Assembly (NCBI GenBank): GCA_030538255.1
Contig: JAUNUI010000013.1
Span: forward strand, 24,776 to 88,775
Origin: Pelistega sp.
GTDB lineage: Bacteria; Pseudomonadota; Gammaproteobacteria; Burkholderiales; Burkholderiaceae_B
Length of the DNA stretch: 64,000 nt
Reading direction: 5' to 3'
Part shown: positions 38,371 to 55,075 of the stretch, one piece after another
Numbering within the stretch: the first letter of the stretch is position 1
How the letters are laid out: every line of letters begins with the position of its first letter
Notes under the pieces: model-generated
The model's input: only the letters and a program-made list of their open reading frames with translations
What the model was told of the DNA's origin: nothing
Databases searched by the model: none
Position numbers and translations under genes: made by a program

Positions 38371-38450
38371 ACGACATCAGGCATTAATTGCTTGATGTCG
38401 TGCTAAAACCGCGTTAAAATATTTGACTGCCCGAACTTTGGGTGGTCAAA
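38371..38450 (+). terminator. Two hairpins between tuf and rpsJ
   Basis: ACGACATCA (38371-38379) pairs with TGATGTCGT (38393-38401). TTTGACTGCCC (38422-38432) pairs with GGGTGGTCAAA (38440-38450), with two G-T pairs, followed by TTTATTTATT. The second looks like a terminator. The remaining 80 bases before rpsJ are very AT-rich, carry four TTCTTTA copies and could hold its promoter. Confidence 0.55.
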
Positions 38451-38539
38451 TTTATTTATTTAGCTCTATATTAATAAATTCTTTATTAATAAGTGTTCTT
38501 TATTATTGTTCTTTAAAGTCTGTTCTTTAGGAAAGTTTC

Positions 38540-38851
38540 ATGAAAAACCAAAAAATCCGTATCCGTTTGAAAGCCTTCGATTATAAATTAATCGACCAAT
38601 CTGCTGCTGAAATCGTCGATACTGCTAAGCGTACTGGTGCTGTTGTTCACGGTCCTGTACCACTACCTACACGTATTAAGCGTTATGATGTTCTACGTTC
38701 ACCACACGTGAATAAAACATCACGCGACCAATTTGAGATTCGTACTCACCAACGTTTGATGGACATCGTTGACCCAACTGACAAAACAGTTGACGCATTG
38801 ATGCGCCTAGATCTACCTGCAGGTGTGGACGTTGAAATTGCATTGCAATAA
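38540..38851 (+). CDS. rpsJ: 30S ribosomal protein S10
   Basis: 103 residues, complete; AGGAAAG before the start. S10 is part of the 30S head and the NusB-S10 antitermination complex. Normally it is the first gene of the S10 operon directly followed by rplC. Here a terminator and about 9.8 kb of unrelated genes separate them. Hairpins on both sides suggest rpsJ may be a single-gene transcription unit. Confidence 0.97.
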
Positions 38852-38890
38852 GAGCTAGACAATAGCTTGAATTGAAAGCTACTGATAAAA

Positions 38891-38917
38891 AACCGTGCCA
38901 CCTGCACGGTTTTTTTA
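38891..38917 (+). terminator. Rho-independent terminator after rpsJ
   Basis: AACCGTGC (38891-38898) and GCACGGTT (38904-38911) form an 8-bp GC-rich stem with a 5-base loop and a run of seven T. A strong terminator exactly where the S10 operon is cut. Confidence 0.92.
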
Positions 38918-39061
38918 TGACTAATGGCTTGGTTTAATTGTTCACCCTAAAGAATCAATTATTTTAATAATCAATTCGTTTTATATAATTTTTGGTAATA
39001 AAAAAATAAAAACACGTCAAAATAATTTAGGTACAATACGAGCTCACTATAAGGATAAGTC

Positions 39062-40096
39062 TTGATACGTTTACAAAACATACACAAGTCTTTTACATCA
39101 AAAGAAAAAACGCTATATGCCTTACAAGGGATTGATTTAGCGATTGAAGAAGGCACTGTCTTTGGCATTATCGGCCGTTCAGGTGCGGGCAAGAGTACGC
39201 TTATCCGTATGATTAACCAGCTTGAAAGACCTGACCAAGGGGCAGTACTGATTGATGATAAAGACATCACTAAGCTCTCGAATGATGGCCTACGTAAGTT
39301 ACGTCAAAGCATTGGTATGGTGTTTCAGCACTTCAATCTGCTCAATTCGCGTACAGTGATTGATAATGTGATGTATCCTCTGCGCTTAGCGGGGGTTGAT
39401 AAGGCGACACGGCAAGCACGCGCCTTGGAATTATTAGAATTAGTTGGCTTAAGCGAGCATGTGCATAAATATCCACGCCAATTGTCGGGAGGTCAACGTC
39501 AACGCGTCGGGATTGCTCGCGCATTGGCGAATCGTCCAAGCATCTTATTATGTGATGAAGCCACGAGCGCTTTAGACCCAGAAACGACCCAATCAGTATT
39601 AGCCCTCTTAAATCGTATTAATAAAGAGATGGGCATTACGATTGTCTTAATCACACACAGTATGAATGTGATTCGTACGCTATGTGATGAGGTGGCGATT
39701 ATTGATGCAGGCAAGATTGTGGAAGAAGGTAAGGTGATTGATGTCTTCTTACATCCTCAACATCCGACCACGAAATCCTTGCTCTCAGAGAGCGGGGTTG
39801 ATGCCGATGGTTGGTTGCCTTTCGCGCAAGATCTACCAGGGAAAGTGGTGCGTCTGACTTATCATGGTGTGGCGACAACTGCTGAGCCCTTATTAAGTCA
39901 GCTAAGCCGTGAATTGGACCTGAACTTTAGTATTTTGCAAGGTTCGGTCGGTAAGATTAAAGAGACGCCATTTGGCCAGTTGGTGATTGTGATTGAACAC
40001 GCCGAGGCGATGACACGTAATCAACGCACGACAGAGGAAGAGATTCGTGAGTTCTTTACAAGTAAGAATGTAGATTTTGAGGTGTTACGCGCATGA
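39062..40096 (+). CDS. metN: Methionine ABC transporter ATP-binding protein MetN
   Basis: 344 residues with a TTG start behind AAGGA. Walker A GRSGAGKST, Q-loop VFQHFNLL, signature LSGGQRQRVGIARAL, Walker B ILLCDEATSALD, then the C-terminal NIL regulatory domain (about 265-340) that senses methionine. First of three genes encoding the D/L-methionine importer. No SAM riboswitch or S-box is recognisable in the 144 bases after the rpsJ terminator. Confidence 0.95.
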   Translation: MIRLQNIHKSFTSKEKTLYALQGIDLAIEEGTVFGIIGRSGAGKSTLIRMINQLERPDQGAVLIDDKDITKLSNDGLRKLRQSIGMVFQHFNLLNSRTVIDNVMYPLRLAGVDKATRQARALELLELVGLSEHVHKYPRQLSGGQRQRVGIARALANRPSILLCDEATSALDPETTQSVLALLNRINKEMGITIVLITHSMNVIRTLCDEVAIIDAGKIVEEGKVIDVFLHPQHPTTKSLLSESGVDADGWLPFAQDLPGKVVRLTYHGVATTAEPLLSQLSRELDLNFSILQGSVGKIKETPFGQLVIVIEHAEAMTRNQRTTEEEIREFFTSKNVDFEVLRA

Positions 40097-40752
40097 ATTG
40101 GGCAAATCTAGACTGGGGCTTAATCGGCGAAGCAACGATTGATACCTTATTAATGACAGGTTGGTCACTGCTGTTGACTGTAATTATTGGGTTACCACTT
40201 GGAGTCTACTTATTCCTAAGTAGTGATCGTCAATTGCTGGAAAATAAACCTGTATACCAAGTGCTTTCTTTGATCGTGAATGTACTGCGTTCAGTACCAT
40301 TCCTAATTTTATTAATTGTCTTAATTCCATTCACACGCATGATTATGGGAAGCGCTTTGGGTGTGCCAGGTGCCATCCCTCCGCTAGTCGTCGGGGCTGC
40401 GCCATTTTTTGCGCGCTTAGTGGAGAATGTCTTGCGTGAGTTGGATCCTGGTATTAGTGAGGCCAGTAAAGCTATGGGTGCTACGCCACGCCAAACAGTG
40501 ATGTGGGCCTTATTGCCAGAATCCTTGACTGGGATTATTAGTGCGATTGTGGTGACGGCTATTGCCTTAGTGGGTTATACCGCTATGTCAGGTGTGATTG
40601 GTGGCGGTGGTCTAGGCGATATCGCGATTCGCTTTGGCTATCAGCGCTATCAAAGTGATGTTATGATTATTACCGTTCTTATTCTGATTGTGCTGGTACA
40701 GCTGATTCAGATGTTCGGTGATTATTTAGTGGCTAAATTTACTCGTAAATAG
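40093..40752 (+). CDS. metI: Methionine ABC transporter permease MetI
   Basis: 219 residues; start overlaps the metN stop by four bases (ATGA). Five membrane helices and the EAA loop (GISEASKAMGATPRQTVMWALLPE) are visible, with SVPFLILLIVLIPFTR and GYTAMSGVIGGGGLGDIAIRFGYQRY typical of MetI. It forms the membrane channel of the methionine importer. Confidence 0.95.
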   Translation: MNWANLDWGLIGEATIDTLLMTGWSLLLTVIIGLPLGVYLFLSSDRQLLENKPVYQVLSLIVNVLRSVPFLILLIVLIPFTRMIMGSALGVPGAIPPLVVGAAPFFARLVENVLRELDPGISEASKAMGATPRQTVMWALLPESLTGIISAIVVTAIALVGYTAMSGVIGGGGLGDIAIRFGYQRYQSDVMIITVLILIVLVQLIQMFGDYLVAKFTRK

Positions 40753-40772
40753 ATTTTTTCTTGGAGCTTATT

Positions 40773-41567
40773 ATGAAATTAAAACAAGTTTTTGGCGCTT
40801 TTGCCTTAGCCGCAGGTGTTTTTGCTTTGAGTACATCGGCTCAAGCACAAACTAAATTAAGCATTGCAGCGACACCAGTGCCGCATGCTGAGATTTTAGA
40901 ATTTGTGAAGCCTACGCTTGCGAAAGAGGGCGTGGATTTGGATATTAAAGTCTTCACTGACTATGTTCAACCTAACCAACAAGTGGCTGATAAAGCTATT
41001 GATGCGAACTTCTTCCAACACAAACCTTACCTAGATAGCTTTAATAAAGAGCATCGTACGGATTTAGTGCATGTGGGCTTTGTTCACGTTGAGCCTTTCG
41101 GTGCCTACTCTAAGAAAGTTAAGAGTGTTGCTGATATTCCAGAGGGTGCAACTATTGCCATCCCTAACGACCCTTCCAATGGCGCACGTGCTTTATTATT
41201 AATCCAAAAGCAAGGTCTGCTAAAACTTAAAGATCCGACCGATCTATTAGCCACAGCACGTGATGTTGTTGAGAATCCTAAGAAATTTAAATTTAAAGAA
41301 CTAGAGGCAGCAACCTTACCACGCGTATTGGATGACGTTGATGTAGCCTTGATTAACTCGAACTATGCTTTAGAAGCTGGTTTAAATCCAGTTGAAGAGG
41401 CATTGTTTATTGAAGACGCAGAGTCTCCTTATGCTAACGGTGTAGCCACCATCACAGAGAAAGCCGAATCAGCACCTGTTAAGGCCTTAATCAAAGCCTT
41501 GCAAACAGAAGAAGTGAAGAAATTCATTGCGGATAAATACAAAGGTGCCGTGGTACCAGCGTTCTAA
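40773..41567 (+). CDS. metQ: Methionine-binding protein MetQ (NlpA family)
   Basis: 264 residues from the ATG at 40773, six bases after TTGGAG; a TTG at 40761 is part of that site. Signal MKLKQVFGAFALAAGVFALSTSAQAQ has no lipobox, so this MetQ appears to be a soluble periplasmic protein rather than a lipoprotein. The NlpA fold is clear: ATPVPHAEILEFVKPTLAKEG, DANFFQHKPYLDSFNK, AIPNDPSNGARALLLIQ, ALINSNYALEAGL. Signal for the importer encoded by metN-metI. Confidence 0.93.
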   Translation: MKLKQVFGAFALAAGVFALSTSAQAQTKLSIAATPVPHAEILEFVKPTLAKEGVDLDIKVFTDYVQPNQQVADKAIDANFFQHKPYLDSFNKEHRTDLVHVGFVHVEPFGAYSKKVKSVADIPEGATIAIPNDPSNGARALLLIQKQGLLKLKDPTDLLATARDVVENPKKFKFKELEAATLPRVLDDVDVALINSNYALEAGLNPVEEALFIEDAESPYANGVATITEKAESAPVKALIKALQTEEVKKFIADKYKGAVVPAF

Positions 41568-41600
41568 TCTTATGTAATTGCTTATTGCAGCATAATGCAT

Positions 41601-41638
41601 AAATTGGCTAGTCTGTCTTATGATGGACTAGCCAATTT
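41601..41638 (+). terminator. Terminator of metNIQ
   Basis: A perfect 13-bp stem, AAATTGGCTAGTC (41601-41613) with GACTAGCCAATTT (41626-41638), 12-base loop, followed by TATC. It ends the metNIQ unit ahead of the VOC gene. Confidence 0.8.
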
Positions 41639-41699
41639 TATCAGAGCTCGTTGTAAACCCCTGTCGATCAAGGCGGGGAGGATCTCAAGAGGAGAAAAG

Positions 41700-42080
41700 A
41701 TGCAAATTGAACGCTTAGATCATTTGGTGCTTACCGTACAGGATTTGCAGAAAACCTTAGCATTTTATGTGGATGTCTTAGGTATGCAAGCTATTACCTT
41801 TGGACAAGGGAGATATGCTCTGCAATATGGCCAACAGAAAATCAATCTGCATATTAAGGGTCAGGAGTTTGAGCCTAAGGCTCAGCAAGTCATGTGCGGT
41901 AGCGCAGATTTATGTTTTATTAGCAGCACGCCATTAGAGCAAGTAGCGCAAGAGCTAGTACAAGCAGGTGTTGCTATTATTGAGGGACCTGTGCAAAGAA
42001 CAGGCGCCATGGGGCCGATTAATTCGCTGTATGTACGTGACCCCGATGGCAATCTCATTGAGATTAGTCAGTATCAATAG
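41700..42080 (+). CDS. VOC family protein (glyoxalase/dioxygenase superfamily)
   Basis: 126 residues from the ATG at 41700, with AAGAGGAG before it; an in-frame start at 41595 lies in the metQ terminator and is rejected. Two beta-alpha-beta-beta-beta modules: IERLDHLVLTVQDLQKTLAFYVDVLGM with a metal-ligand histidine, and INSLYVRDPDGNLIEISQY with the terminal glutamate ligand. It resembles STM3117-like VOC proteins. A single-domain metalloenzyme; the reaction is unknown. Confidence 0.8.
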   Translation: MQIERLDHLVLTVQDLQKTLAFYVDVLGMQAITFGQGRYALQYGQQKINLHIKGQEFEPKAQQVMCGSADLCFISSTPLEQVAQELVQAGVAIIEGPVQRTGAMGPINSLYVRDPDGNLIEISQYQ

Positions 42081-42240
42081 TCTTCAGCATGCTGTGAGTG
42101 ATTGGTAGCATACTGTGAGCTCGTATTTAACCACTGATAGTGCTTGCTACCAGCTTGAGGAGCGGCACTAGTGCCTGGTGGGCGTGCTATCAATAAATCA
42201 AAAGAGAGTGTGCTTGCTGCAAAGCTTATCAATCTAAGTA

Positions 42241-42262
42241 ACCCCCTATGTTATTAGGGGGT
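42241..42262. terminator. Hairpin between convergent VOC and yjdM genes
   Basis: ACCCCCTA (42241-42248) and TAGGGGGT (42255-42262) with a 6-base loop between convergent genes. A GC-rich stem without a clear T run; a probable bidirectional terminator. Confidence 0.5.
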
Positions 42263-42276
42263 AGCGAGATCTATGT

Positions 42277-42609
42277 TTAGGCTTTCTTCACAAATTCAGA
42301 TTTCAGGTCCATATTGCTACCATCAATCTTACAGGCAATATTGTGATCGCCTTCTTGTAGGCGGATGCTTTTGACTTTGGTGCCTTGTTTGATAACCATT
42401 GAGCTGCCTTTTACTTTAAGGTCTTTAATCAAGACTACGCTATCCCCATCGGCTAGTGGGGTGCCATGGGCATCATTGACGCTTAAGCTATCATCGGCCT
42501 CAGTGGCATCTTGCTCAAGCCATTCATGCGCGCATTCAGGACAAACAAACTGAATGCCATCGTGGTAAGTAAGTTCTGATTGGCATTGCGGGCAGGCTGG
42601 GTAAGTCAT
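42277..42609 (-). CDS. yjdM: YjdM/PhnA family zinc-ribbon protein
   Basis: 110 residues from the ATG at 42609, six bases behind GGAG; in-frame ATGs upstream are less well placed. An N-terminal zinc ribbon ([25 protein letters not shown]) and a C-terminal PhnA SH3-like domain ([30 protein letters not shown]). The family was once called alkylphosphonate utilization protein PhnA, but no phosphonate genes are nearby and the function is unclear. Confidence 0.9.
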
Positions 42610-42890
42610 AATGGGCTCCATAATAAAACCCAAAAGCTCAACATAATGTGTTTAACTTTTGGGTGTTTTGTTGAGATGTGAATAATGTGATAGTGGCTTA
42701 ATACACTAGAACATTGACTTGTTGAATAAGCTTAATGTTAGCTAGCAAAGAATGCCATTCACTTAACTATAGCTTAACTATATGTATATTTTTGAGTCAT
42801 ATAGTTTTAAGTTTTAATAATTGCTTAATTTAAGCCTGAATCATAAGTTTTTTTGTTCACAACAATCTATACAGAGCATTATAGCCTGAA

Positions 42891-43253
42891 TTAACGATAG
42901 CGGTTATAACGTGCATTGTTATAGCTGCGCTTATAGGCGCCCTTGCCGCGATAACTGCGATCGCCTTTGCGTTTATAGCTTGTTCGGCGATCATCATAAC
43001 GGCGGTCATCATAACGGCGGTCATTGTAGCGACGATCATCATTGCGATAAATTTGATTGCCTAATAAGCCACCAATCGCCGCACCACCCACAGTGACTAA
43101 TGGATCGGCATCAGATACGGCAGCACCTGCAAGTCCACCTAGGCCAGCACCGACTACAGTGGCATTATCACGTGCGCTATTATGCGCACAGCCAGCAAAG
43201 ATAAGGGCGGAAATAGAAATAAGACCGATACGTGTGATTTTTGTGATGTTCAT
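42891..43253 (-). CDS. Glycine-zipper 2TM lipoprotein
   Basis: 120 residues. Signal peptide with lipobox (IFAGC, cysteine at 22), then a glycine-zipper segment (VVGAGLGGLAGAAVSDADPLVTVGGAAIGGLLGNQIY, about 34-68) that can insert in membranes, and a basic tail with repeated YDDRR/YNDRR units (about 71-90), from a 15-bp DNA repeat, then a Lys/Arg/Tyr-rich end. A probable outer-membrane lipoprotein of the SlyB/17-kDa antigen type; role unknown. Confidence 0.82.
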   Translation of the reverse strand: MNITKITRIGLISISALIFAGCAHNSARDNATVVGAGLGGLAGAAVSDADPLVTVGGAAIGGLLGNQIYRNDDRRYNDRRYDDRRYDDRRTSYKRKGDRSYRGKGAYKRSYNNARYNRYR

Positions 43254-43495
43254 GGCAGCGCTCCTAATAAAATACGCTTGATGATAATTAACTTAACAAT
43301 TTTTCTTAGGAGTATCATCGCAAGAAATACCAGAAATAGCTGTTAGTGATTAGCAAGAGTTGTGTCGGAGTTTGTCTTTTACTCTGCATTTGAAAAGATT
43401 TGAAGCAATTGCCTAGGCAAATGTCTTCTCGGCTAGCTTTTTAAGCTATTTAAAAGTACACTTTACTGGCATCTTTAACTATCAAGGAGTGCCGA

Positions 43496-45022
43496 TTGGA
43501 GGCCATAAGACAAGTTCAGCAGTGGTTTTTACAGGCGGATATCTATTTGCTGCTCGCTTTAGCTGCGCTGTTAATTTGTGTGGTTTGGCTCTTCATCCAG
43601 AGTCGTCATAAGAGTCGCTTATTAACCAAGCTAGCTGTTTTAGAAGAGCGACTGGCGGATAAGCAAGACGATGAATTGCATCTACAGGGGCTGTATAGTG
43701 AATTGCAAGATAATTATGCGCAACTCGATGAAAAAAGTGATGAGTTAGAGCAACGCTATGCGGCTTTAAATGCGAGCTATTCATTCGTGCGCCAGCAGCT
43801 TGATGAGCAACAAGCACAATTATATGAAGCGCAGGATAGTGAGCGTAATTTGCGCCAGCAATTAAGTGAATTGGGTCAAGATAATCTGCGTCTAAGTCTA
43901 CAAACCAGTCAGAAAGCGCAACAGTTAGACGAGATGAAAGCACAGTTTGATCAGTCGCGCCAACAGCTGAGTGCCGAGTTTGAAAGCTTGGCCAATCGCA
44001 TTATGCAAGAGAAGATCCAGCTTTTTAGCCAAGATAATCAGCAGCAGATGGGGCAACTAATGCAGCCCTTAAAGGAGCAACTGGAGGGCTTCCAACGGCG
44101 TGTGAATGAGGTGCATGATCAGTCACGAGAAGGGCAGCAGATGTTAAAGCAACATATTCAGCATGTAATGGATATGGGCATTAAGATGAGCAGTGAGGCA
44201 CAGTCCTTGGCGCGTGCGCTGAAAGGAGATAAGAAAACCCTCGGTAATTGGGGTGAAATGCAATTAGAGCTTGCCTTAGAGCAGGCGGGGCTACTGCGTG
44301 ATCAACACTATTATGTACAACCCTCGTATAAAGATGAGCAAGGTAAGTTGTATCTGCCTGATGTGGTGCTAGTATTGCCTGAAGACAAGCATCTGATTAT
44401 CGATAGTAAAGTTTCTTTAAACGCGTACCAGGAGGCGCAAAACCAAACCGATCCCAATCTGGTGCAGAATTATCTGCAGCAGCATATTAAGGCCGTGCGC
44501 CAACATATCCATGATCTTGCGAGTAAAGACTATAGTCGTCTGGTGGGTTTAAATTCTCCGGGCTTTGTCTTTATGTTTATGCCACTTGAGGCGGCTTATA
44601 TTGAGGCCCTTAAGCAAGACCCCAAACTCTTCCAAGAGGCTTATAGTAAGGGGATTGTGCTAGTATCTCACACCACCTTAATGCCAACTTTGCGTACCAT
44701 TGCCTATTTATGGATGATGGCCAACAGTAATCAACAGGCTTTGGCTTTAGGGGATAAAGCGCTGGATATTTATAATCAAGTGGCAAGAGTAGCCGAGCAC
44801 CTGAGCAAGTTGGGCAATACCTTAAATACAGCAAGCAAGCAATACAATAGCACAGTGACGAGTTTTGCCGGTCAACAAGGCTTGACGAGCAAGGTGGAGC
44901 GCTTTAGGGAGCTATCGGCTAAAACCAGCAAGGACTTACAGGTGCCTATGGATCTTGAGTTGCATTGTCAGACTGAGCGACTACAAGGACTGAGTAATGA
45001 CGCGGGAGAGTCATCATTGTAA
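43496..45022 (+). CDS. rmuC: DNA recombination protein RmuC
   Basis: 508 residues with a TTG start exactly six bases behind AAGGAG, which makes it convincing. A membrane helix (about 14-32), a long coiled coil (about 45-220) and the RmuC nuclease-like core (about 235-460; GNWGEMQLELALEQAGLL, LPEDKHLIIDSKVSLNAY, FVFMFMPLEAAYIEAL). RmuC limits inversions between short inverted repeats, which is of note in a genome so rich in short repeats. Confidence 0.92.
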   Translation: MEAIRQVQQWFLQADIYLLLALAALLICVVWLFIQSRHKSRLLTKLAVLEERLADKQDDELHLQGLYSELQDNYAQLDEKSDELEQRYAALNASYSFVRQQLDEQQAQLYEAQDSERNLRQQLSELGQDNLRLSLQTSQKAQQLDEMKAQFDQSRQQLSAEFESLANRIMQEKIQLFSQDNQQQMGQLMQPLKEQLEGFQRRVNEVHDQSREGQQMLKQHIQHVMDMGIKMSSEAQSLARALKGDKKTLGNWGEMQLELALEQAGLLRDQHYYVQPSYKDEQGKLYLPDVVLVLPEDKHLIIDSKVSLNAYQEAQNQTDPNLVQNYLQQHIKAVRQHIHDLASKDYSRLVGLNSPGFVFMFMPLEAAYIEALKQDPKLFQEAYSKGIVLVSHTTLMPTLRTIAYLWMMANSNQQALALGDKALDIYNQVARVAEHLSKLGNTLNTASKQYNSTVTSFAGQQGLTSKVERFRELSAKTSKDLQVPMDLELHCQTERLQGLSNDAGESSL

Positions 45023-45450
45023 GAGCTTGCGCTCTCTAAGGGTGGAGTATTCAAGCCATTCCAATTCTCGCTACCTGAGGCCTTAAGTCAGGACAAGTGG
45101 AGCCAAGTGAAGATACTATAGCTTGTATAAGCTCGATTATCATTAAGTTAGGACTAGTGGCTAGCAAGTGAAGCCAAGACTCTTAGGGATTCCCTGCAAG
45201 GTGGAGCTAAGGACTATTCGCTATAATTTCTTGAGCATTAAATAAGATAAATAAATGGACCCGTGAAGTGGCTGCGAAGTGTTGGTTGCTTATAAGTGCT
45301 CTAGCTATGAAGGTGATAGACTGAGGGCTCTAGACATAAGGCATAAGGATACTAGATAGAAGGGTATAAAAGCTCTAGCTATGAGGGTGCCAGATAGAAG
45401 GGCAGTAGATATAAGAGCGCCAGGTATAAGGGCTCTAGAGGAGATTTTAG
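45023..45450. repeat. Repeat-rich gap before the acyl-CoA ligase gene
   Basis: 428 bases without a gene. GCTCTAGCTATGAAGGTG (45298-45315) recurs with one change at 45372-45389. From 45389 to 45435 three units of about 15 bp run in tandem (CCAGATAGAAGGGCA-like). The earlier half has looser direct repeats (CAAGTGGAGCCAAGTGAAG, CAAGTGAAGCCAAG). AGAGGAGATTTTAG before 45451 is the ribosome site. Confidence 0.7.
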
Positions 45451-47220
45451 ATGTCGTTCGATTCGGTAAATACCGCTCAAGAAAAATACGCTAACTTTGC
45501 GTGGAGGGTCCCTCCTTATTACAATATTGGTGTCGATGTCTGCGATAAGTGGGCTGATGGCAGTGGGCGCTTAGCGCTGATTGATGAGAAAGCTCCTAAT
45601 AATATTCAAACCTATACTTTTGATGATCTAAAGAATAAATCCAATCAATTGGCGAATAGTTTGCAAAAAGCGGGCTTGCTTCCTGGTGACCGCGTGGGTA
45701 TCCTTTTAGGCCAAGGTGTCGAAACAGCGATTGCGCATATTGCGATTTATAAAATAGGGGCGATTGCGATTCCATTATTCTCTCTGTTTGGTATCGATGC
45801 CTTGCATTATCGCTTGGATAATTCAGGGGCTAAGGTCTTAATCACCAATAATGAAGGTATTGGGAAGATTGCGGCTATGCCGGAATGCCCATTAAACTTA
45901 GAGAGTATTTTTAATGTAGATAGTGATTTGACCTGGCCACAAGACGTACAGTTTATTGAGACGCAAGCTTTAAAGTCACATTCAGAGCAAGACTCAAACA
46001 CAAATCCAAGCCTGGGTTTAAACTCAAGCCTAGCTGCTGTTACAAGTCAAGGCGCCAATACCAATAGTATCAGTTCCAATGTAAAACTATTCTCATTTTG
46101 GAATGAGCTAGACGGACAAAGTACGGAATTTGAGCCGCTCAACACCCTAGCCGATGATCCTGCTGTCATTATTTATACTTCAGGTACCACGGGCAAACCT
46201 AAGGGCGCTTTGCATGCGCATCGCGTTCTGCTTGGGCACCTACCAGGTGTGGAGATGTCACATAATTATTTCCCTGGAAAAAATAGGGTGATGTGGACGC
46301 CCGCTGACTGGGCTTGGATTGGTGGGCTTTTTGATGTGCTGATGCCAGCCTGGCACCATGGCATGGTGGTGGTGGCGTGTCGCTTTAGTAAGTTTTCGGC
46401 TGAGGCGGCTTTTGACCTTATGCAGCGCCACCAAGTTACCAATGTCTTTTTACCCCCAACTGCTCTGAAGATGTTACGCAAACAAGAGAGAATTCCTGAG
46501 CGTTGGCAGCTCGCCTTGCGCAGTGTGGCCAGTGGCGGCGAGTCGTTAGGGGCTGAGTTACTGGATTGGGGACAGCGCAACTTCGGTTTGCTGATTAATG
46601 AGTTTTATGGGCAGACTGAATGCAATATGTTGGTTTCCTCTTGCTCTGTCTTGTTTGCGCCTAAGCCTGGGGCAATGGGTAAGGCGGTGCCTGGTCATCA
46701 GGTAGAAATTATTAATCTACAAGGTGAGATCCAAGCACCTGGTCATGAAGGGCATATCGCCGTGCGTGCGCCAGACCCTGTGATGTTCCTCAACTATTGG
46801 GCGAATCCGCAAGCGACGCAAGAGAAGTTTGTGGGTGAGTACTTGCTGACAGGAGATATGGGGATGCGGGATGAAGAAGGGTATTTCACCTTTGTCGGGC
46901 GTGATGATGATGTGATTACTAGCGCGGGTTATCGGATTGGCCCGGGCCCTATTGAGGATTGTATCTTGAGTCACCCTGCAGTGAGTATGGTGGCGGTGGT
47001 GGGTGTGCCTGATGAGGAACGTACCGAAATAGTGACGGCATTTGTTATTTTGCATGAGGGGCTTGAGGGTAGCGATGCGCTTAAGCAAGAAATTCAAGAT
47101 CATGTGCGAGAACGAGTGGCAGCGCATGAGTATCCGCGAGCGGTGCATTTCGTTGATGAGCTGCCGATGACAACCACAGGCAAGATTATCCGTAAACAAT
47201 TGCGTCAGATTCAGGTTTAA
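45451..47220 (+). CDS. AMP-forming acyl-CoA synthetase (MACS/acetyl-CoA synthetase-like)
   Basis: 589 residues of the ANL superfamily: P-loop YTSGTTGKPKGALHAH (about 240-255), FYGQTECN near 385, TGDMGMRDEEGYFTFVGRDDDV near 468 and the catalytic lysine in TTTGKIIRKQLR near 580. PADWAWIGGLFDVLMP is typical of the acetyl/medium-chain acyl-CoA synthetase branch. A Ser/Asn-rich insert (about 172-212) looks like low-complexity material between core strands. It activates a short or medium acid to its CoA thioester; substrate not predictable. Confidence 0.87.
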   Translation: MSFDSVNTAQEKYANFAWRVPPYYNIGVDVCDKWADGSGRLALIDEKAPNNIQTYTFDDLKNKSNQLANSLQKAGLLPGDRVGILLGQGVETAIAHIAIYKIGAIAIPLFSLFGIDALHYRLDNSGAKVLITNNEGIGKIAAMPECPLNLESIFNVDSDLTWPQDVQFIETQALKSHSEQDSNTNPSLGLNSSLAAVTSQGANTNSISSNVKLFSFWNELDGQSTEFEPLNTLADDPAVIIYTSGTTGKPKGALHAHRVLLGHLPGVEMSHNYFPGKNRVMWTPADWAWIGGLFDVLMPAWHHGMVVVACRFSKFSAEAAFDLMQRHQVTNVFLPPTALKMLRKQERIPERWQLALRSVASGGESLGAELLDWGQRNFGLLINEFYGQTECNMLVSSCSVLFAPKPGAMGKAVPGHQVEIINLQGEIQAPGHEGHIAVRAPDPVMFLNYWANPQATQEKFVGEYLLTGDMGMRDEEGYFTFVGRDDDVITSAGYRIGPGPIEDCILSHPAVSMVAVVGVPDEERTEIVTAFVILHEGLEGSDALKQEIQDHVRERVAAHEYPRAVHFVDELPMTTTGKIIRKQLRQIQV

Positions 47221-47232
47221 ATGGTTGTGATC

Positions 47233-47320
47233 GTGATGGTATGGACATGAAAATGTTAATAATGCACGGCTACGCTCATACTCGGTACGAGTCGGTAGTG
47301 ATGGTATGGGCATGAAGATG
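47233..47320. repeat. 23-bp direct repeat, two copies
   Basis: Copies at 47233-47255 and 47298-47320 begin GTGATGGTATGG and differ at two positions; they lie between the acyl-CoA ligase and ornithine cyclodeaminase genes. Confidence 0.75.
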
Positions 47321-47398
47321 ATAGTAAATACAGGATGATAATAATCTTGTATCCAAGAATGATAACAGCCAGATGGCGAACACAGGAGTACAGAATAC

Positions 47399-48331
47399 AT
47401 GGCAATCGCTTTTTATAATGCGCAAGAAACCGCGCAATTAATTAATTTCACTGATTTAACAGCAACCTTAAAAGACGTGGTGCTTGAATATGCGGATGGC
47501 ATTATTCAAAGTCCCGATCGTCAAGCTTTAACCATCCCCGATGCACGAGAGGGTGTGTTGTTATCGATGCCTTCAACGGCACGTGATATTTGTGTGCATA
47601 AGCTGATTTCTTTATTGCCTGATAATCCCTCGCAAGAGCGAGCGACGATTCAGGGAATTGTCTCCGTCATGGATAGCCGTACTGGACAAGTCGTTTGTGT
47701 TCTTGATGGTCCTACGGTGACTGCGCGTCGCACGGCTGCGATGAGTATTTTAGGAGTGCAGCAATATTTACCACGTGCACCTAAAACGATAGTGATGATC
47801 GGTGCTGGCGGTCAGGCACAAGCGCATATTGAGGCGATTAATGAGATATTTCCAGGGGTGCATCTGTACATTGCAGCACGTAGCGCGTCCTTGACTAAGG
47901 CGCAAGCGGTGTGTCAGCGCTATCAAGATCTTAGCATTAGTATGGAGGCGATTGATATTGATAAACTGCCAGGTGAGTTCGATGTCTTAATCACCTTAAC
48001 CACGGCGCTTGCCCCGATTTACCATCTTCCAGCGAAAGTGGAGCGACTTATCGTTGCGGTGGGTGCGTATCGTCCGCATATGTGCGAAATTGCCCCAGAA
48101 ACTGTCCTGGCAAGTCGCTGTTTCGTCGATGATATTGTCGGTGCCAAACATGAGGCGGGTGATTTTATTCAAGCAGGCAAGGATTGGTCACAAGTGCAGA
48201 CCTTGGCGCATAGCATTCGGCATGGTCAAGAAGAGGGTACGCCAATTCTGTTTAAGACCGTCGGTACGGCGGCTTGGGATCTGGCTGCGGCACGCGTGGC
48301 TTTTCAGCGCTTGCAGGGCGGGGCGTGTTGA
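47399..48331 (+). CDS. Ornithine cyclodeaminase/mu-crystallin family reductase
   Basis: 310 residues. Rossmann NAD(P) motif VMIGAGGQAQAHIEAI (about 132-147), substrate lysine/arginine region VHKLISLLPDNP, GPTVTARRTAAMSILG and SRCFVDDIVGAKHEAGD. The family contains ornithine cyclodeaminase, alanine dehydrogenase and delta1-piperideine-2-carboxylate/pyrroline-2-carboxylate reductases. The last is favoured because an AmaB-like dehydrogenase lies across the ribosomal block, and both would serve lysine/pipecolate catabolism. That link is inference. Confidence 0.8.
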   Translation: MAIAFYNAQETAQLINFTDLTATLKDVVLEYADGIIQSPDRQALTIPDAREGVLLSMPSTARDICVHKLISLLPDNPSQERATIQGIVSVMDSRTGQVVCVLDGPTVTARRTAAMSILGVQQYLPRAPKTIVMIGAGGQAQAHIEAINEIFPGVHLYIAARSASLTKAQAVCQRYQDLSISMEAIDIDKLPGEFDVLITLTTALAPIYHLPAKVERLIVAVGAYRPHMCEIAPETVLASRCFVDDIVGAKHEAGDFIQAGKDWSQVQTLAHSIRHGQEEGTPILFKTVGTAAWDLAAARVAFQRLQGGAC

Positions 48332-48635
48332 TACCTGATCTTAGTTTATGACAGGTCACAAGGAAAAGTGAATGCTTAAATTAGGCCAAAAAAGAAAAAA
48401 TCATTGTTTTTACAACAACTTAAATAAAAACATCTTGAATTTCTTAGTGGAAAGTGTTAAATTAGCAGGCTAACCATTAGGTTAGTGTGCTTATTGCACT
48501 TGGAATGCTGCTGTAAGAGGCGTTGAATAGATTAATATTCAGTTAATCGTGCAGTATATTTCACACCACAATAAGTGCATCACAAAAATTTAATTTTTAG
48601 GCCTGGCCAATCGTAGCCAGGGTATGGAGAAAACG
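48332..48635 (+). promoter_or_regulatory. Promoter and leader of the rplC operon
   Basis: TTGAAT (48435-48440) and TTAAAT (48457-48462), 16 bases apart, form a credible promoter. The roughly 165-base leader contains CTAACC-ATTA-GGTTAG and a CCTGGC/GCCAGG hairpin just before the rplC ribosome site (GGAG). In E. coli the S10 leader, with its L4 control, precedes rpsJ; here any such leader would have to be in this spot or lost. Confidence 0.5.
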
Positions 48636-49325
48636 ATGTCGAATACGACACCTACACCTGCCGCTCATCGGTTGGGGCTAGTTGGTCGCAAAGTTGGCAT
48701 GATGCGTATTTTTACTGAGGAAGGCGAGTCTATCCCAGTAACAGTCCTTGACGTATCTAACAACCGCGTTACTCAAGTTAAGTCTCTAGAAACTGATGGC
48801 TATGCAGCAGTACAAGTTGCTTACGGTACTCGCCGTGCAACTCGTGTGACTAAGCCTGAAGCTGGTCACTATGCCAAAGCTGGCGTTGAAGCCGGTTCCA
48901 TCCTGAAAGAGTTCCGTTTAGACCCAAGTAAAGCGGCTGAATTTACGCCAGGTACAGTTGTATCTGTTGAAAGCGTATTTGAAGCTGGCCAAAAGGTTGA
49001 TGTACAAGGTACAACAATCGGTAAGGGTTTTGCAGGTACTATTAAGCGTCATAACTTTAATGGTCACCGCCGTTCTCACGGTAACTCGATCTCTCACCGC
49101 GTGCCTGGCTCTATCGGTCAAGCGCAAGACCCGGGTCGTGTTTTCCCAGGTAAGCGTATGGCTGGCCACATGGGTGATGTAACTCGTACAGTTCAAAATC
49201 TTGATATCGTTCGTGTCGATGCTGAACGTGGTTTATTGTTGGTTAAGGGCGCTGTTCCTGGCCACAAAAACTCGGACATCGTTGTGCTACCGGCTATCAA
49301 AATGTCTGCTAAAGGAGCCAAATAA
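48636..49325 (+). CDS. rplC: 50S ribosomal protein L3
   Basis: 229 residues from the ATG at 48636, six bases after GGAG; an ATG four codons upstream contains that site. [27 protein letters not shown] and the loop with the methylated glutamine ([22 protein letters not shown]) are intact. L3 is a primary 23S rRNA binder. It is the first gene of this truncated S10 operon, since rpsJ is 9.8 kb away. Confidence 0.97.
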
Positions 49326-49945
49326 TGGAACTTAAGCTCCTAAATGAACAAGGTCAATCTGAAGCAACCGTTACTGCTCCAGACACAATCTTTGGTCGCG
49401 AATTTAACGAAGCATTGGTTCACCAAATCGTAGTAGCTTATCAAGCTAACGCGCGTAGCGGTAACCGTGCTCAGAAAGATCGTGCAACTGTTAAGCACAG
49501 CACTAAAAAGCCATGGCGCCAAAAAGGCACAGGCCGTGCCCGTGCTGGTATGACATCTTCGCCAATCTGGCGTGGAGGTGGTCGTGCTTTCCCAAGTTCT
49601 CCTGATGAGAATTTCAGCCATAAAGTGAACAAGAAAATGTACCGTGCTGGTATCCGTTCTATCTTGTCACAATTGGCGCGTGAAGGCCGTATCGCTGTTG
49701 TGGATTCTTTCACATTTGATACACCTAAAACAAAATTGGCTGCAACTAAGCTAAAAGAGATGGGTTTAGATTCTGTATTAGTGATTACTGATGCAGTTGA
49801 CGAGAACACCTACTTGGCTACTCGTAACCTACCGCACGTAGCTGTGGTTGAGCCACGTTATGCAGATCCTCTTTCATTGGTCCACTACAAAAAAGTGTTG
49901 ATCACGAAAGCGGCTATCGCTCAATTTGAGGAGATCTTAGGATGA
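49325..49945 (+). CDS. rplD: 50S ribosomal protein L4
   Basis: 206 residues; start overlaps the rplC stop by one base (TAATG). L4 lines the exit tunnel and in E. coli regulates the S10 operon. The tunnel loop ([27 protein letters not shown]) is complete and normal. Confidence 0.97.
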
Positions 49946-50244
49946 AAGCAGAACGTTTATTGCAAGTAATTCTGGCTCCAGTCATCACAGAGAAGGCAAC
50001 ATTTATTGCTGAATCTGGTGCGAAACCACAAATCGCTTTGCGTGTGGCTCCTGATGCAACTAAACCAGAAGTTAAAGCTGCTGTAGAAATGCTTTTTAAA
50101 GTAGAAGTTGACTCTGTCTCGGTTCTAAACCGCAAGGGTAAAGTTAAGCGTACAGGTCGTTTTGTTGGTCGTCGTCGTGCCAACCGTATCGCTTACGTTT
50201 CTCTGAAAAAAGGTCAAGAGCTTGACTTTTCGGAGGTGAACTAA
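49942..50244 (+). CDS. rplW: 50S ribosomal protein L23
   Basis: 100 residues, start overlapping rplD by four bases (ATGA). L23 surrounds the tunnel exit and docks trigger factor and [24 protein letters not shown] and the [17 protein letters not shown]-like loop are typical. Confidence 0.97.
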
Positions 50245-50245
50245 G

Positions 50246-51073
50246 ATGGCATTAGTTAAAACAAAACCAACGTCTGCTGGTCGTCGTGGCATGCTTAAGG
50301 TGGTAACACCAGGTTTGCATAAAGGCGCTCCATACGCAGCTCTTGTAGAGCCACAAAAACGTGGTTCTGGTCGTAATAATAACGGTCACATTACTGTGCG
50401 CCATCGTGGTGGTGGTCATAAATCACACTACCGTATTGTTGACTTCCGTCGCAATAAAGATGATATCGCTGCTAAAGTTGAGCGCATTGAATACGATCCT
50501 AACCGTACAGCACGTATTGCATTAGTTTGCTACGCTGACGGTGAGCGTCGTTACATCATTGCTCCACGTAACTTAGAAGTGGGTGCAACAGTGATTTCTG
50601 GCAAAGAAGTACCTATTAAACCAGGTAACACAATGCCAATCCGTAATATTCCTATCGGTGCAACTATCCACTGCGTTGAGATGCAACCAGGCAAAGGCGC
50701 GCAAATCGCTCGCTCTGCAGGTACATCAGCAGTTTTAATGGCACGTGAAGGTACTTACGCTCAAATTCGTTTACGTTCTGGCGAAGTTCGCTTAGTTCAT
50801 ATTGACTGCCGTGCAACAATCGGTGAAGTCAGCAACGAAGAGCACAGTTTACGTCAAATCGGTAAAGCCGGTGCAGTTCGCTGGCGCGGTATTCGTCCGA
50901 CAGTTCGTGGTGTTGCCATGAACCCGGTAGATCACCCACACGGTGGTGGTGAAGGCCGTACTGGTGAAGCACGTGAACCTGTGAGCCCATGGGGTACACC
51001 TGCTAAAGGTTACAAAACCCGTCGTAACAAGCGTACAGACAATATGATTGTCTCACGTCGTAAGCGTAAATAA
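50246..51073 (+). CDS. rplB: 50S ribosomal protein L2
   Basis: 275 residues, one base after rplW. L2 supports the peptidyl-transferase centre; the highly conserved histidine region ([14 protein letters not shown]) and basic C-terminus are present. Confidence 0.98.
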
Positions 51074-51089
51074 GGGACGGTAATATACT

Positions 51090-51365
51090 ATGTCACGTTC
51101 AATTAAAAAAGGTCCTTTCGTCGATGCTCACCTTATGAAAAAGGTTGAGGCGGCCGTTGAAGGAAAAGATAAAAAGCCGATCAAAACTTGGTCGCGTCGT
51201 TCAACCATCCTTCCTGATTTTATCGGAATGACAATCGCAGTACATAACGGTCGTCAACACGTACCTGTTTATGTTAACGAAAATATGGTTGGTCACAAGC
51301 TAGGCGAATTCGCGCATACCCGTACATACAAGGGTCACGCTGCGGATAAGAAGTCTAAGAGGTAA
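51090..51365 (+). CDS. rpsS: 30S ribosomal protein S19
   Basis: 91 residues, complete ([34 protein letters not shown]). S19 forms part of the 30S head with S13. It follows rplB after 16 bases with the usual order. Confidence 0.98.
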
Positions 51366-51368
51366 GCG

Positions 51369-51698
51369 ATGGAAACTACAGCCGTAATTCGTGGTGTACA
51401 TATTTCAGCTCAGAAGACACGTCTTGTTGCGGACATGATCCGTGGTAAGTCAGTGGTTCAAGCTTTGAATATCCTTACATTCACACAGAAAAAAGCCGCT
51501 GGTATCATCAAGAAAGCTTTAGAGTCAGCAATTGCTAACGCTGAGCACAATGATGGTGCTGATATTGACGAGTTAAAAGTGACTACAATTTATGTAGACA
51601 AAGCTCAGTCAATGAAGCGATTCTCCGCACGCGCTAAAGGCCGCGGTAACCGTATTGAGAAGCAGACTTGCCACATTGTGGTTAAAGTCGGCGCTTAA
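51369..51698 (+). CDS. rplV: 50S ribosomal protein L22
   Basis: 109 residues, three bases after rpsS. L22 contacts all six 23S domains and its beta hairpin ([10 protein letters not shown] region, about 88-100) reaches into the exit tunnel. Sequence and length are normal. Confidence 0.98.
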
Positions 51699-51707
51699 GG
51701 AGTCATA

Positions 51708-52481
51708 ATGGGTCAGAAAATTCACCCTACAGGGTTCCGTCTCGCAGTAACACGTAACTGGAATTCTCGTTGGTATGCTGAAGGCGATAACTTCGGCACA
51801 ATGTTAGCGGAAGACGTTCGTGTACGTGAGTACTTAAAGCGTAAACTTAAAGCTGCTTCAGTCGGTCGCGTTCTTATTGAGCGTCCAGCTAAGAATGCTC
51901 GTATTACGATTTTCTCAGCTCGTCCAGGCGTGATCATCGGTAAAGGTGGTGATGACATCGATGCATTGAAAAATGACTTGCAACGCCTAATGGGTGTGCC
52001 TGTTCATGTGAACATCGAAGAAATCCGTAAACCTGAAGTTGATGCTCAATTAATCGCTGATTCGATTGCTCAACAACTAGAAAAACGTATCATGTTCCGT
52101 CGTGCCATGAAACGCGCTATGCAAAATGCAATGCGTTTAGGTGCACAAGGTATCAAGATTCAATCTTCTGGTCGTTTGAACGGTATCGAAATTGCACGTA
52201 CAGAGTGGTATCGTGAAGGTCGTGTGCCTCTACATACACTACGTGCCATCATCGATTATGCAACATCTGAAGCCCACACAACTTACGGTATCATTGGTAT
52301 CAAAGTTTGGGTTTACAAAGGTGATTTATTGCCTAACGGCGAAATGCCTGCAGAAGTTGCTGCTCCACGTGAAGAAGAGCGTCGTACTCGTCGCCCACGC
52401 GGTGATCGTACCGATCAACGTCGTCCAGCTCGTGGCCGCCGCAAACCTGCTGATGCAGCACCGGCAGCAGAAGGAGAATAA
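51708..52481 (+). CDS. rpsC: 30S ribosomal protein S3
   Basis: 257 residues. KH domain with [16 protein letters not shown] (about 64-80) and the C-terminal S3 domain up to about residue 210, followed by an Arg/Pro/Ala-rich tail ([18 protein letters not shown] and on) of about 40 residues, longer than in E. coli but seen in other betaproteobacteria. S3 lines the mRNA entry channel. Confidence 0.97.
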
Positions 52482-52483
52482 TT

Positions 52484-52900
52484 ATGTTATCACCAGCACG
52501 TAGAAAATTCCGCAAGGAGCACAAAGGCCGTAACACTGGTCTAGCAACTCGCGGTACTAACGTAAACTTTGGCGATTTCGGTCTTAAAGCAACTGACCGC
52601 GGCCGTTTGACAGCACGTCAAATTGAAGCAGCGCGTCGTGCCATGACTCGTCATATTAAACGTGGTGGCCGTATTTGGATTCGTATCTTCCCAGACAAAC
52701 CAATTTCACAGAAACCTGCTGAAGTTCGTATGGGTAAAGGTAAAGGTAATCCAGAGTTCTGGGTCGCTGAAATTCAACCAGGTAAAGTATTGTACGAAAT
52801 GGACGGTGTAAGCGAAGAGCTAGCCCGTGAAGCATTCCGTCTTGCTGCCGCTAAGCTGCCTATTTCGACGACGTTCGTAACTCGTCACTTAGGTTCTTAA
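52484..52900 (+). CDS. rplP: 50S ribosomal protein L16
   Basis: 138 residues, two bases after rpsC, GGAG before the start. L16 binds near the A-site tRNA. The arginine in the [14 protein letters not shown] context region that is often hydroxylated in relatives is in a normal setting. Confidence 0.97.
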
Positions 52901-52910
52901 GGAGATCTTT

Positions 52911-53102
52911 ATGAAAGCTAGTGAACTACGTTCAAAAGACGCCACCGAGCTAAATAAAGAGCTCGAGAGCTTGTTGAGAGCACAATTTAACTTGCGTATG
53001 CAACGTGCGACACAACAACTTTCTAACACAAGCCAATTAGGCAAAGTACGTCGCGACATTGCACGTGTACGCACTGTTATGACCGAGAAGGCAGGAAAGT
53101 AA
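52911..53102 (+). CDS. rpmC: 50S ribosomal protein L29
   Basis: 63 residues ([31 protein letters not shown]), a two-helix protein at the tunnel exit next to L23. AGGAG precedes the start; 10 bases after rplP and one base before rpsQ. Confidence 0.96.
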
Positions 53103-53103
53103 T

Positions 53104-53376
53104 ATGAGCGAAACTCAAGTCGAAAAACGCCAACGTACGTTAATCGGTAAAGTGGTTAGCAACAAGATGGATAAAACTGTCGTCGTTCAAGTTGAGCGTC
53201 GCGTTAAGCATCCTCTTTATGGCAAAATCATGATCCGTACTAACAAGTACAAAGCGCATGATGAAAACAATCAATACAACGAAGGCGACACTGTGGAAAT
53301 CGCAGAAGGCCGTCCAATTTCACGCTCTAAATCGTGGAACGTTGTACGTCTGATTGAAGCTGTTCGCGTAATCTAA
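53104..53376 (+). CDS. rpsQ: 30S ribosomal protein S17
   Basis: 90 residues with the OB fold ([47 protein letters not shown]). S17 binds 16S rRNA early in assembly. It is the last gene of this block; a terminator follows and the spc genes (rplN and onward) are not next to it. Confidence 0.97.
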
Positions 53377-53557: not shown

Positions 53558-55075
53558 TTATTCCTCACCAAATTTTACGCCTTGCGCCAAGGGTAATTCT
53601 TTCGAATAATTAATCGTATTGGTAGCGCGGCGCATATAGACTTTCCAGGCATCTGAACCAGATTCACGCCCACCGCCCGTTTCTTTCTCGCCACCAAAAG
53701 CGCCACCTATCTCAGCACCAGAAGTGCCGATATTCACATTGGCGATACCACAATCGGAACCTGCAGCAGACAGGAATGTTTCTGCTTCAAGTAGGTTCGT
53801 GGTGAAAATTGCCGATGATAAGCCTTGTGGCACATCGTTGTGCATGCTGATGGCCTCATCGAATGTATCATAGCTCATTACATAGAGGATAGGTGCAAAG
53901 GTTTCATGTTTGACAATGGCAGTTTGCGCTGACATAGCTACAATGGCGGGTTCCACATAATATGCCTCAGGATAGTGCTCTTGCAAAGCACGTTGACCTC
54001 CTGTAATCATATGACCGCCTTGCTGCTTTGCTTGGTCTAAGGCTTCTTGCATAGCGTCAAATGAAGCTTGATCAATTAATGGCCCTAGTAAAGTACTCTC
54101 TTCAAGAGGGTTACCAATCTTTACTGATTGATAGGCTTTCTTAAGAGCGCTTAATAATTCATCGATGCGTGATTGGTGCACAATGAGTCGACGGGTGGAG
54201 GTACAACGTTGCCCTACCGTACCAATCGCGCCGAATACAATACCGCGTACGGCCATAGCTAAATCGGCTGATTCACAGACAATAATTGCATTATTACCAC
54301 CGAGTTCAAGTAGGCTACGACCAAATCGGGCGGCTACGCGGGGACCTACTTCACGACCCATGCGAGTAGAGCCAGTGGCTGAGACTAAGCTGACTACTGG
54401 ACTATCGACCAAGGCTTCACCGACAGTTCTTTGACCAATTAGTAATTGTGCAAGTCCTTCAGGGGCCTCACCAAAGCGCGCTAGGGCCTTTTGAAAAATA
54501 GCTTGTGTCGCTAATGCGGTTAAGGGGCATTTTTCGGATGGCTTCCAGATAACGGCATTACCGCATACGAGCGCCAATGCTGTATTCCAAGACCATACCG
54601 CAACGGGGAAGTTAAAAGCCGTAATGACACCAACCACACCTAAGGGATGCCATGTTTCCATCATCCTATGCCCAGGGCGTTCTGAAGCAATGGTAAGGCC
54701 GTATAACTGGCGTGAGAGCCCAACAGCAAAATCACAGATATCGATCATTTCCTGTACTTCACCTAAACCTTCAGAGATGATTTTGCCGGCTTCAATTGAG
54801 ACGAGCTTTCCTAGTGCCTCTTTATGAGTACGTAATTCATCACCGAGTAATCGAATTAACTCACCTCGTTTGGGGGCAGGAACCGTGCGCCAAGCCAAAT
54901 AAGCAGCCTGAGCTTGTTGCAACGCTTCTTGTATCTCATCCTGTGAATGCTCATGCACGTCGGCAATATGCGAACCGTCAATAGGTGAATAGACAGGAAG
55001 ACTGCCGCCTATAAATGCATCTTGTTTAATGCCTAAAGAAAGTAGAAGTTCGTGGGTGGATTGCATAAGAGACAT
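53558..55075 (-). CDS. amaB: Aldehyde dehydrogenase, ALDH7/AmaB type (piperideine-6-carboxylate dehydrogenase)
   Basis: 505 residues. NAD+-dependent aldehyde dehydrogenase with catalytic C291 (GTVGQRCTSTRR) and general base E257 (LLELGGNNAI). The GGNNA in place of GGKxP and the ALDH7-style EMIDICDFAVGLSRQLYGLTI segment point to the antiquitin/AmaB branch, which oxidises alpha-aminoadipic semialdehyde in lysine/pipecolate breakdown. AAGGAG lies 10 bases before the start. It is convergent with the S10 operon. Other aldehyde substrates cannot be excluded. Confidence 0.85.
   Translation of the reverse strand: MSLMQSTHELLLSLGIKQDAFIGGSLPVYSPIDGSHIADVHEHSQDEIQEALQQAQAAYLAWRTVPAPKRGELIRLLGDELRTHKEALGKLVSIEAGKIISEGLGEVQEMIDICDFAVGLSRQLYGLTIASERPGHRMMETWHPLGVVGVITAFNFPVAVWSWNTALALVCGNAVIWKPSEKCPLTALATQAIFQKALARFGEAPEGLAQLLIGQRTVGEALVDSPVVSLVSATGSTRMGREVGPRVAARFGRSLLELGGNNAIIVCESADLAMAVRGIVFGAIGTVGQRCTSTRRLIVHQSRIDELLSALKKAYQSVKIGNPLEESTLLGPLIDQASFDAMQEALDQAKQQGGHMITGGQRALQEHYPEAYYVEPAIVAMSAQTAIVKHETFAPILYVMSYDTFDEAISMHNDVPQGLSSAIFTTNLLEAETFLSAAGSDCGIANVNIGTSGAEIGGAFGGEKETGGGRESGSDAWKVYMRRATNTINYSKELPLAQGVKFGEE

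Follow-up and report, generated by a model that had tools for sequence, protein, structure and literature searches.

An opened rpsJ-rplC junction in the S10 cluster of Pelistega and its relatives, and a conserved hairpin before rplC as a candidate ribosomal protein leader

Introduction

In a 64,000-nucleotide stretch of a Pelistega sp. draft genome (GCA_030538255.1, contig JAUNUI010000013.1, positions 24,776 to 88,775; this whole stretch is called the window below), rpsJ, the gene for ribosomal protein S10 (also known as NusE), is separated from rplC and the remainder of the S10 operon, and the same separation recurs in the family to which this genome belongs. Few bacterial gene orders are as conserved as that of the S10 cluster, the control of which is best understood in Escherichia coli. 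We consider it fairly probable (roughly 0.62) that rpsJ and rplC-rpsQ form, in this family, two transcription units under separate control and that the gap between them is a seam; if so, other genes could be inserted at the seam without breaking an operon. The observations on which this rests are gene orders, conserved motifs, covariation, position and distribution.

Results

Coordinates and gene content of the split locus

38540-38851, plus strand: rpsJ (S10, NusE)
38852-48635, 9,784 bp: intervening block, nine genes between rpsJ and rplC
48636-53376, plus strand: rplC-rplD-rplW-rplB-rpsS-rplV-rpsC-rplP-(rpmC)-rpsQ, remainder of the S10 operon, free-standing (rpmC is bracketed as shorter than the cut-off used for gene identities)

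An earlier reading of the window made from its letters alone (the sequence-only reading) had placed rplC about 9.8 kb from rpsJ, had noticed no mobile genes in the block and had favored a rearrangement. Coordinates and gene identities confirm the separation, with 9,784 bp between the rpsJ stop and the rplC start, and the nine genes in this interval are, in order, metN, metI, metQ, a VOC gene, yjdM (minus strand), a glycine-zipper lipoprotein gene (minus strand), rmuC, an AMP-binding ligase gene and an ornithine cyclodeaminase (OCD)/mu-crystallin gene, where eight of the nine proteins were identified by Pfam and metI by homology. No transposase or integrase is present among the Pfam matches of those eight proteins, so we rejected insertion of a transposon or island, and the rearrangement reading is supported. 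An assembly error that joined the rpsJ region to a distant rplC might be suspected in a 47-contig draft (2.95 Mb), but it is very unlikely, to the point of being negligible, because the junction is internal to one contig (C45, inside which the window sits) and because metNIQ...rmuC likewise separates the two genes in five further members of the genus, of which two have single-contig genomes.

Distribution of the split

Searches with rpsJ and with rplC covered 61 genomes, namely the window's own and those of 60 relatives; 37 of the 61 belong to the window's family. The two genes lie on one contig in 32 family genomes and are split in 26 of these, with gaps of 1.8-78 kb; in the other six (G009, G011, G013, G021, G031 and G034) they are adjacent, with a gap of at most 414 bp. 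Of the remaining five family genomes, G002 and G027 carry the two genes on separate contigs and G018, G023 and G032 gave no rpsJ match; G018 gave no rplC match either. In the other families of the order, both genes were found in 23 of 24 genomes, 22 with the genes adjacent and one (G044) with a 15.3-kb split. That the split is peculiar to this genome is thus not supported; comparison with close relatives, as that reading had suggested, shows that contiguous order is not universal among them and that five genomes of the genus are split likewise.

Those five (G001, G003, G004, G005 and G006) carry metN-metI-metQ-(VOC)-rmuC between rpsJ and rplC, and in G002 the contig next to rplC carries the metNIQ/VOC/rmuC-type block genes too. 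Among 80 named loci, Pelistega europaea has the block in common with the window. The contents of the inserted block vary from genus to genus: the OCD gene adjoins rplC in Advenella alkanexedens (L004) and in one metagenome-assembled genome (L002) and lies 4 kb from it in Advenella sp. S44 (L005), and rmuC adjoins rplC in two Oligella-type loci. The adjacent state is found among the named loci of Bordetella, Herbaspirillum and most Achromobacter. On a tree of concatenated parts of ribosomal proteins (83 loci, 82 scored) at least six changes between the split and adjacent states are needed, a rough minimum because 23 of its 80 internal branches are open and the rows of L095, L117 and L119 are long.

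A conserved hairpin in the rplC leader

48602-48621, plus strand: conserved rplC leader hairpin, CCTGGC-CAATCGTA-GCCAGG, by pattern and RNA model
48626-48629, plus strand: Shine-Dalgarno of rplC, 4 nt 3' of the conserved hairpin

Whatever genes are inserted, the leader in all genera compared ends in a hairpin, a Shine-Dalgarno and the rplC start. The hairpin is a 6-bp stem with the near-invariant loop CAAUCGNA. In a set of 75 distinct leaders, whose rplC genes are at least 77.5% identical and for which the loop alone served as the search key, the 8-nt loop CAATCGNA is closed by six pairs in all 75, with 17 versions of the stem-loop; the distance from hairpin to GGAG is 3 nt in 58 of these leaders, 4 nt in five (the window included) and 6 nt in two, and two leaders have no GGAG. 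Across 113 rplC loci, some of which represent one genome twice, 112 match the hairpin pattern with at least five of six pairs, and the miss in L072 is due to a short slice, the hairpin being present in a longer view. Counted by genome, the hairpin is found in all 36 family genomes with rplC, among them the 0.8-Mb genome G013 (L095), and in 20 of 23 genomes from other families of the order.

The stem covaries. On 39 rows, which had been pre-selected for at least five of six pairs (a selection that excluded only L072, by its slice cut), the pairs score 0.689 for covariation, compared with 0.266 for shuffles (0 of 500) and no more than 0.155 for slid versions; 99.1% of cells are paired and all six pairs vary on both sides. 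Adding seven gammaproteobacterial rows that the RNA model had found raises the score to 0.885, against 0.348. Counts of double-change pairs and of pair types are less exceptional, as they are reached by 24 and 14 of 500 shuffles for the 39 rows, and by 63 and 127 of 500 with the gammaproteobacterial rows. The element thus has a consistent place upstream of a ribosomal protein operon and a covarying secondary structure, and on these sequence features we propose it as a ribosomal protein leader for rplC-rpsQ.

The RNA model has a single match in the window's own genome, at 34.3 bits, the next best scoring 14.6. In the class outside the order, the hairpin was found by pattern upstream of rplC in 13 of 123 loci taken from different families, whereas the pattern occurred in one of 6050 mononucleotide shuffles. 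Among the 33 class-level RNA-model match loci, rplC lies downstream in 24, weaker matches being outside this count; in a search of the phylum, rplC lies downstream in all ten matched genomes of the same order and in none of six outside it. The tallies of these wide searches are lower bounds because few candidates were scored per genome, and among the unmatched genomes of the order G050 alone was read. Model matches of 29-30 bits in L142 (30.3 bits), L323, L325 and L326 have no rplC in the stretch examined and may be accidental or reflect a further use of the hairpin.

Nowhere in the window does an Rfam family attain its gathering cut-off, and the rplC leader compared with Rfam to E 10 gave only a small nucleolar RNA (snoRNA) model, at E 6.2. 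Taken by itself, the window leader has a better fold than its shuffles (z -3.98). A conserved structure of the whole leader was considered and rejected, since the consensus predicted from an alignment of eight leaders is the one hairpin only. Folding the hairpin region by itself leaves the window's Shine-Dalgarno unpaired; in the whole-leader fold a helix enclosing the hairpin pairs part of it, and this outer helix is not conserved.

Two observations made by eye concern other structures near this position. In L024, L034, L039, L088 and L103 another small G+C hairpin follows the conserved one ahead of the rplC start codon and, it seems, partly covers the Shine-Dalgarno. In five gammaproteobacterial loci that lack the conserved hairpin (L170, L177, L185, L213 and L262) the rpsJ-rplC gap holds a TATAAT- or CATAAT-like hexamer followed by a strong G+C hairpin, possibly a different leader or attenuator.

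A boxA-like motif before rpsJ

38495-38529, plus strand: three boxA-like GTTCTTTA copies (38495, 38508 and 38522) just 5' of the rpsJ start, putative NusB/NusE (S10) site

What is conserved ahead of rpsJ is a boxA-like element. The core GYTCTTT lies within 40 nt of rpsJ in all 75 distinct upstream sequences whose rpsJ is at least 93% identical, 65 of them with a final A, in 27 of 41 at 84-93% identity and in three of 126 below that (17 of 280 loci were set aside for too little upstream sequence); shuffles of the first set contain it in 57 of 3750 cases. The motif is not rare, GYTCTTTA occurring 11 times in the window where 5.5 occurrences are expected, and it is therefore its place and conservation that count. 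The window's draft genome gave no 23S match, and for comparison with ribosomal RNA operons (rrn) we used the relative G004, in which TGTTCTTTAACAA stands before 16S and between 16S and 23S with the same core as the rpsJ motif; for this reason we take GYTCTTT to be the boxA core of the lineage. The rrn boxA core is thus found within 50 nt of the rpsJ start codon and, since S10 is NusE, autoregulation of rpsJ by NusB/NusE is likely by analogy.

Terminator-like and promoter-like signals at the seam

38887-38915, plus strand: terminator-like hairpin after rpsJ, AAAAAACCGTGC-CACCT-GCACGG-TTTTTTT
48435-48463, plus strand: promoter-like TTGAAT-N17-TAAATT (TG-extended -10) of the rplC operon, by comparison with relatives
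48469-48486, plus strand: P1 hairpin GCTAACC-ATTA-GGTTAGT, predicted 5' end of the transcript
38371-38401 and 38421-38451, plus strand: pair of strong hairpins in the tuf-rpsJ interval, of which the second is terminator-like with a T-rich tail

The sequence-only reading had rpsJ closed by a terminator and rplC standing behind a promoter-like sequence of its own, and candidates for both are present. The region of the terminator-like hairpin after rpsJ folds at -21.8 kcal/mol; a generic scan leaves it out, seemingly because the T-run is drawn into its stem. Such a hairpin follows rpsJ in 30 of 34 split loci (19 of 680 shuffles) and in 13 of 28 adjacent loci (17 of 560 shuffles), which suggests that the unit boundary already exists in some relatives whose genes are still adjacent, for example several Achromobacter. 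On the rplC side, the motif of extended -10 plus 5' hairpin, a regular expression built after viewing the sequences, covers 51 of the 75 distinct leaders, not all, against 54 of 1500 shuffles. The two hairpins between tuf and rpsJ may uncouple rpsJ from tuf, partly or wholly.

The rpsQ-rplN junction

53558-55075, minus strand: aldehyde dehydrogenase gene, after rpsQ on the opposite strand; the S10-spc junction is open

The other end of the unit is open as well. In the window's genome rplN lies on contig C6, away from rpsQ. Outside the family the distance from rplC to rplN is 4.7-5.4 kb in all 22 genomes with both genes; within it this closed spacing is found only in three of 36 genomes (G013, G017 and G021), and in the other 33 the genes are at least 6.7 kb apart or on different contigs or strands. 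With both the rpsJ-rplC and the rpsQ-rplN junctions open, rplC-rpsQ is therefore a free-standing unit, inside which rplC, rplD, rplW, rplB, rpsC and rpsQ remain together at normal spacing in the mapped loci. Beside the aldehyde dehydrogenase gene, at 55179-55787 on the minus strand, lies a gene for a protein with a Tai4-like domain (type VI secretion amidase immunity).

Discussion

We infer transcription starts and stops, protein binding, repression and a ligand in the following model. Transcription of rpsJ would run together with that of the str genes, or directly follow it, and would end at the terminator-like hairpin, and excess S10 (NusE) together with NusB would probably bind boxA in the start region of rpsJ and repress it. 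rplC-rpsQ would start at its own promoter with a leader that, in most family members, ends in the hairpin 3-4 nt before the Shine-Dalgarno, and a ribosomal protein encoded in rplC-rpsQ would probably bind this hairpin and block ribosome loading, which would give the unit a feedback loop of its own. Both the boxA motif before rpsJ and the hairpin before rplC are also found in relatives in which the two genes are adjacent.

Several observations weigh against this model, in addition to the pre-selection of the 39 covariation rows and the after-the-fact construction of the promoter motif noted above. Splits occur outside the family too (five of the 26 named loci L056-L081, in Massilia and Pseudoduganella), lineages with the hairpin can remain adjacent, and 15 of the 28 adjacent loci have no terminator after rpsJ, with two of the 13 adjacent-locus terminators (L024, L034) lying inside the rplC leader. 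The hairpin is missing from G041 and G050 and has a variant loop in G051; 107 of the 123 class loci lack the pattern (in three of these a related loop can be made out by eye) and three more have no anchor; and the GGAG lies 17 nt from the hairpin in six of the 75 leaders and 27-30 nt from it in two. A generic promoter scan lists 48532 and 48560 near rplC and omits the site at 48435-48463, and near rpsJ the scan yields no more promoters than shuffles do. Finally, the role given to boxA is carried over from work on suhB in E. coli.

Two other explanations bear on whether the separation has anything to do with control. Selection on the S10 cluster may have been relaxed in this family, so that the cluster came apart by neutral drift and the split has no regulatory meaning, an idea that we hold to be possible though doubtful. 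It would account for the 33 of 36 family genomes in which the rpsQ-rplN junction is open, and PMC8046335 describes, for the str-S10 junction elsewhere, drift that follows an initial insertion; yet rplC, rplD, rplW, rplB, rpsC and rpsQ have stayed together, and the breaks fall where terminator and leader exist in some adjacent relatives. Drift is in part compatible with two separately controlled units. It is also conceivable, although we think it rather unlikely, that the hairpin is a constitutive element of rplC translation or stability, which keeps the ribosome-binding site open or marks the RNA for an RNase and involves no feedback. A place 3-4 nt before GGAG in 63 of the 75 leaders would suit such an element, as would the unpaired Shine-Dalgarno of the hairpin-only fold (it is paired in the whole-leader fold) and the finding that no ribosomal RNA site matches the hairpin beyond chance. 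Stability, however, needs no such loop as the 8-nt CAATCGNA, which is kept in 75 of 75 leaders and from beta- to gammaproteobacteria while the stem changes freely, and 25-50 nt separate the hairpin from the GGAG after it in L074, L077, L078 and L079, a distance easier to reconcile with a binding site than with a spacer.

If the hairpin is a binding site, as our two-unit model would have it, the question is for which protein. The E. coli L4 leader contains several hairpins. Its target lies before rpsJ and works with an attenuator, according to the description in PMC10931766, and L4 is the known regulator of the S10 operon there. By that description the window differs, its hairpin being upstream of rplC. 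An L4-binding leader of the E. coli kind, with its target shifted from rpsJ to rplC, seems to us unlikely. The operon does contain rplD, and Eckert and Weinberg list an archaeal leader before rplC with L4 (PMC7247131, in the part that treats it); against it stand the different place and mode of action of the E. coli target and the comparison of the leader with Rfam to E 10, which gave only the snoRNA model. The E. coli L4 target is, as far as PMC10931766 covers the matter, not widely conserved even among gammaproteobacteria, and with no Rfam match in the window we find the claim of the sequence-only reading that the split uncouples S10 from L4-type feedback to be unsupported.

Quite improbable, in our estimate, is binding of uL16 (rplP, in the same operon) through imitation of 23S ribosomal RNA. 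The best model match in the 23S locus of G004 is CCGCC-CAA...UCGAC-GGCGG, which we take to be helix 89, and it is the sole place with that arrangement in the 23S or 16S of G004. uL16 contacts helix 89; to our knowledge it has not been reported as an autoregulator. The match has a stem of 9, and 19 of 300 shuffles have one of at least 6; given the stems that are present, the chance expectation is 0.06-0.19 depending on the stem cut-off, and the last letter of the loop differs. A pattern search of 23S gave seven one-mismatch matches where 7.8 are expected, and 16S has no place with a helix-89-like arrangement and no model match better than E 0.75. PMC11194073, in the part relevant here, links uL16 only with assembly around H89. 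The resemblance to helix 89 thus lies within chance and, as a similarity between sequences, stays a lead. A tentative and more far-reaching version of the two-unit model, which we think doubtful as a whole, is that this 20-nt hairpin with its loop CAAUCGNA replaces the L4/rpsJ leader in the control of the S10 operon of Burkholderiales and of some gammaproteobacteria, perhaps with uL16 as ligand through helix 89 mimicry and with S10 under NusB/NusE and boxA, and that a regulatory boundary shifted by one gene let the operon come apart.

The kinds of element involved are already known from the portions of the literature cited here, namely splitting at the str-S10 junction (PMC8046335), ribosomal protein leaders and boxA autoregulation. 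Rearrangements of the str-S10 cluster in Gammaproteobacteria and Bacilli resemble the present case in that genes are inserted between neighboring str-S10-spc-alpha units, often followed by full separation, but the break described there is, as we understand it, before rpsJ, whereas here it comes after rpsJ and leaves S10 with str; the main text of PMC8046335 does not contain the words rpsJ, rplC or Betaproteobacteria. The rplC leader shares with the E. coli L4 leader, as PMC10931766 presents it, a structured leader of the S10 operon with a ribosomal protein as its ligand (presumed here), but it differs in consisting of one conserved hairpin before rplC with no Rfam match. In E. coli, NusB/NusE at a boxA near the Shine-Dalgarno represses suhB, and rpsJ is a predicted boxA target in three genera (PMC5725501, the sections concerned); the boxA before rpsJ is likewise close to a Shine-Dalgarno, but that survey dealt, as we understand it, with gammaproteobacteria, and here the motif stands in 75 of 75 distinct leaders of the betaproteobacterial family type. 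Small covarying leaders before ribosomal protein genes, including single hairpins (L31), are described by Eckert and Weinberg in 2020 (PMC7247131), and none of the 20 in Table 1 of that paper is a proteobacterial leader before rplC. Searches of the open-licence literature for the rplC leader, for S10-operon leaders and for this split found no description, with that paper's list of 35 older leaders lying outside the comparison. As far as these searches go, the rplC hairpin, the boxA before rpsJ throughout the family type and a break after rather than before rpsJ are new.

A candidate leader present in nearly all sampled Burkholderiales would fill a gap in the control of this operon outside the enterics, and the two-unit model would show an operon breaking where its control units already end.

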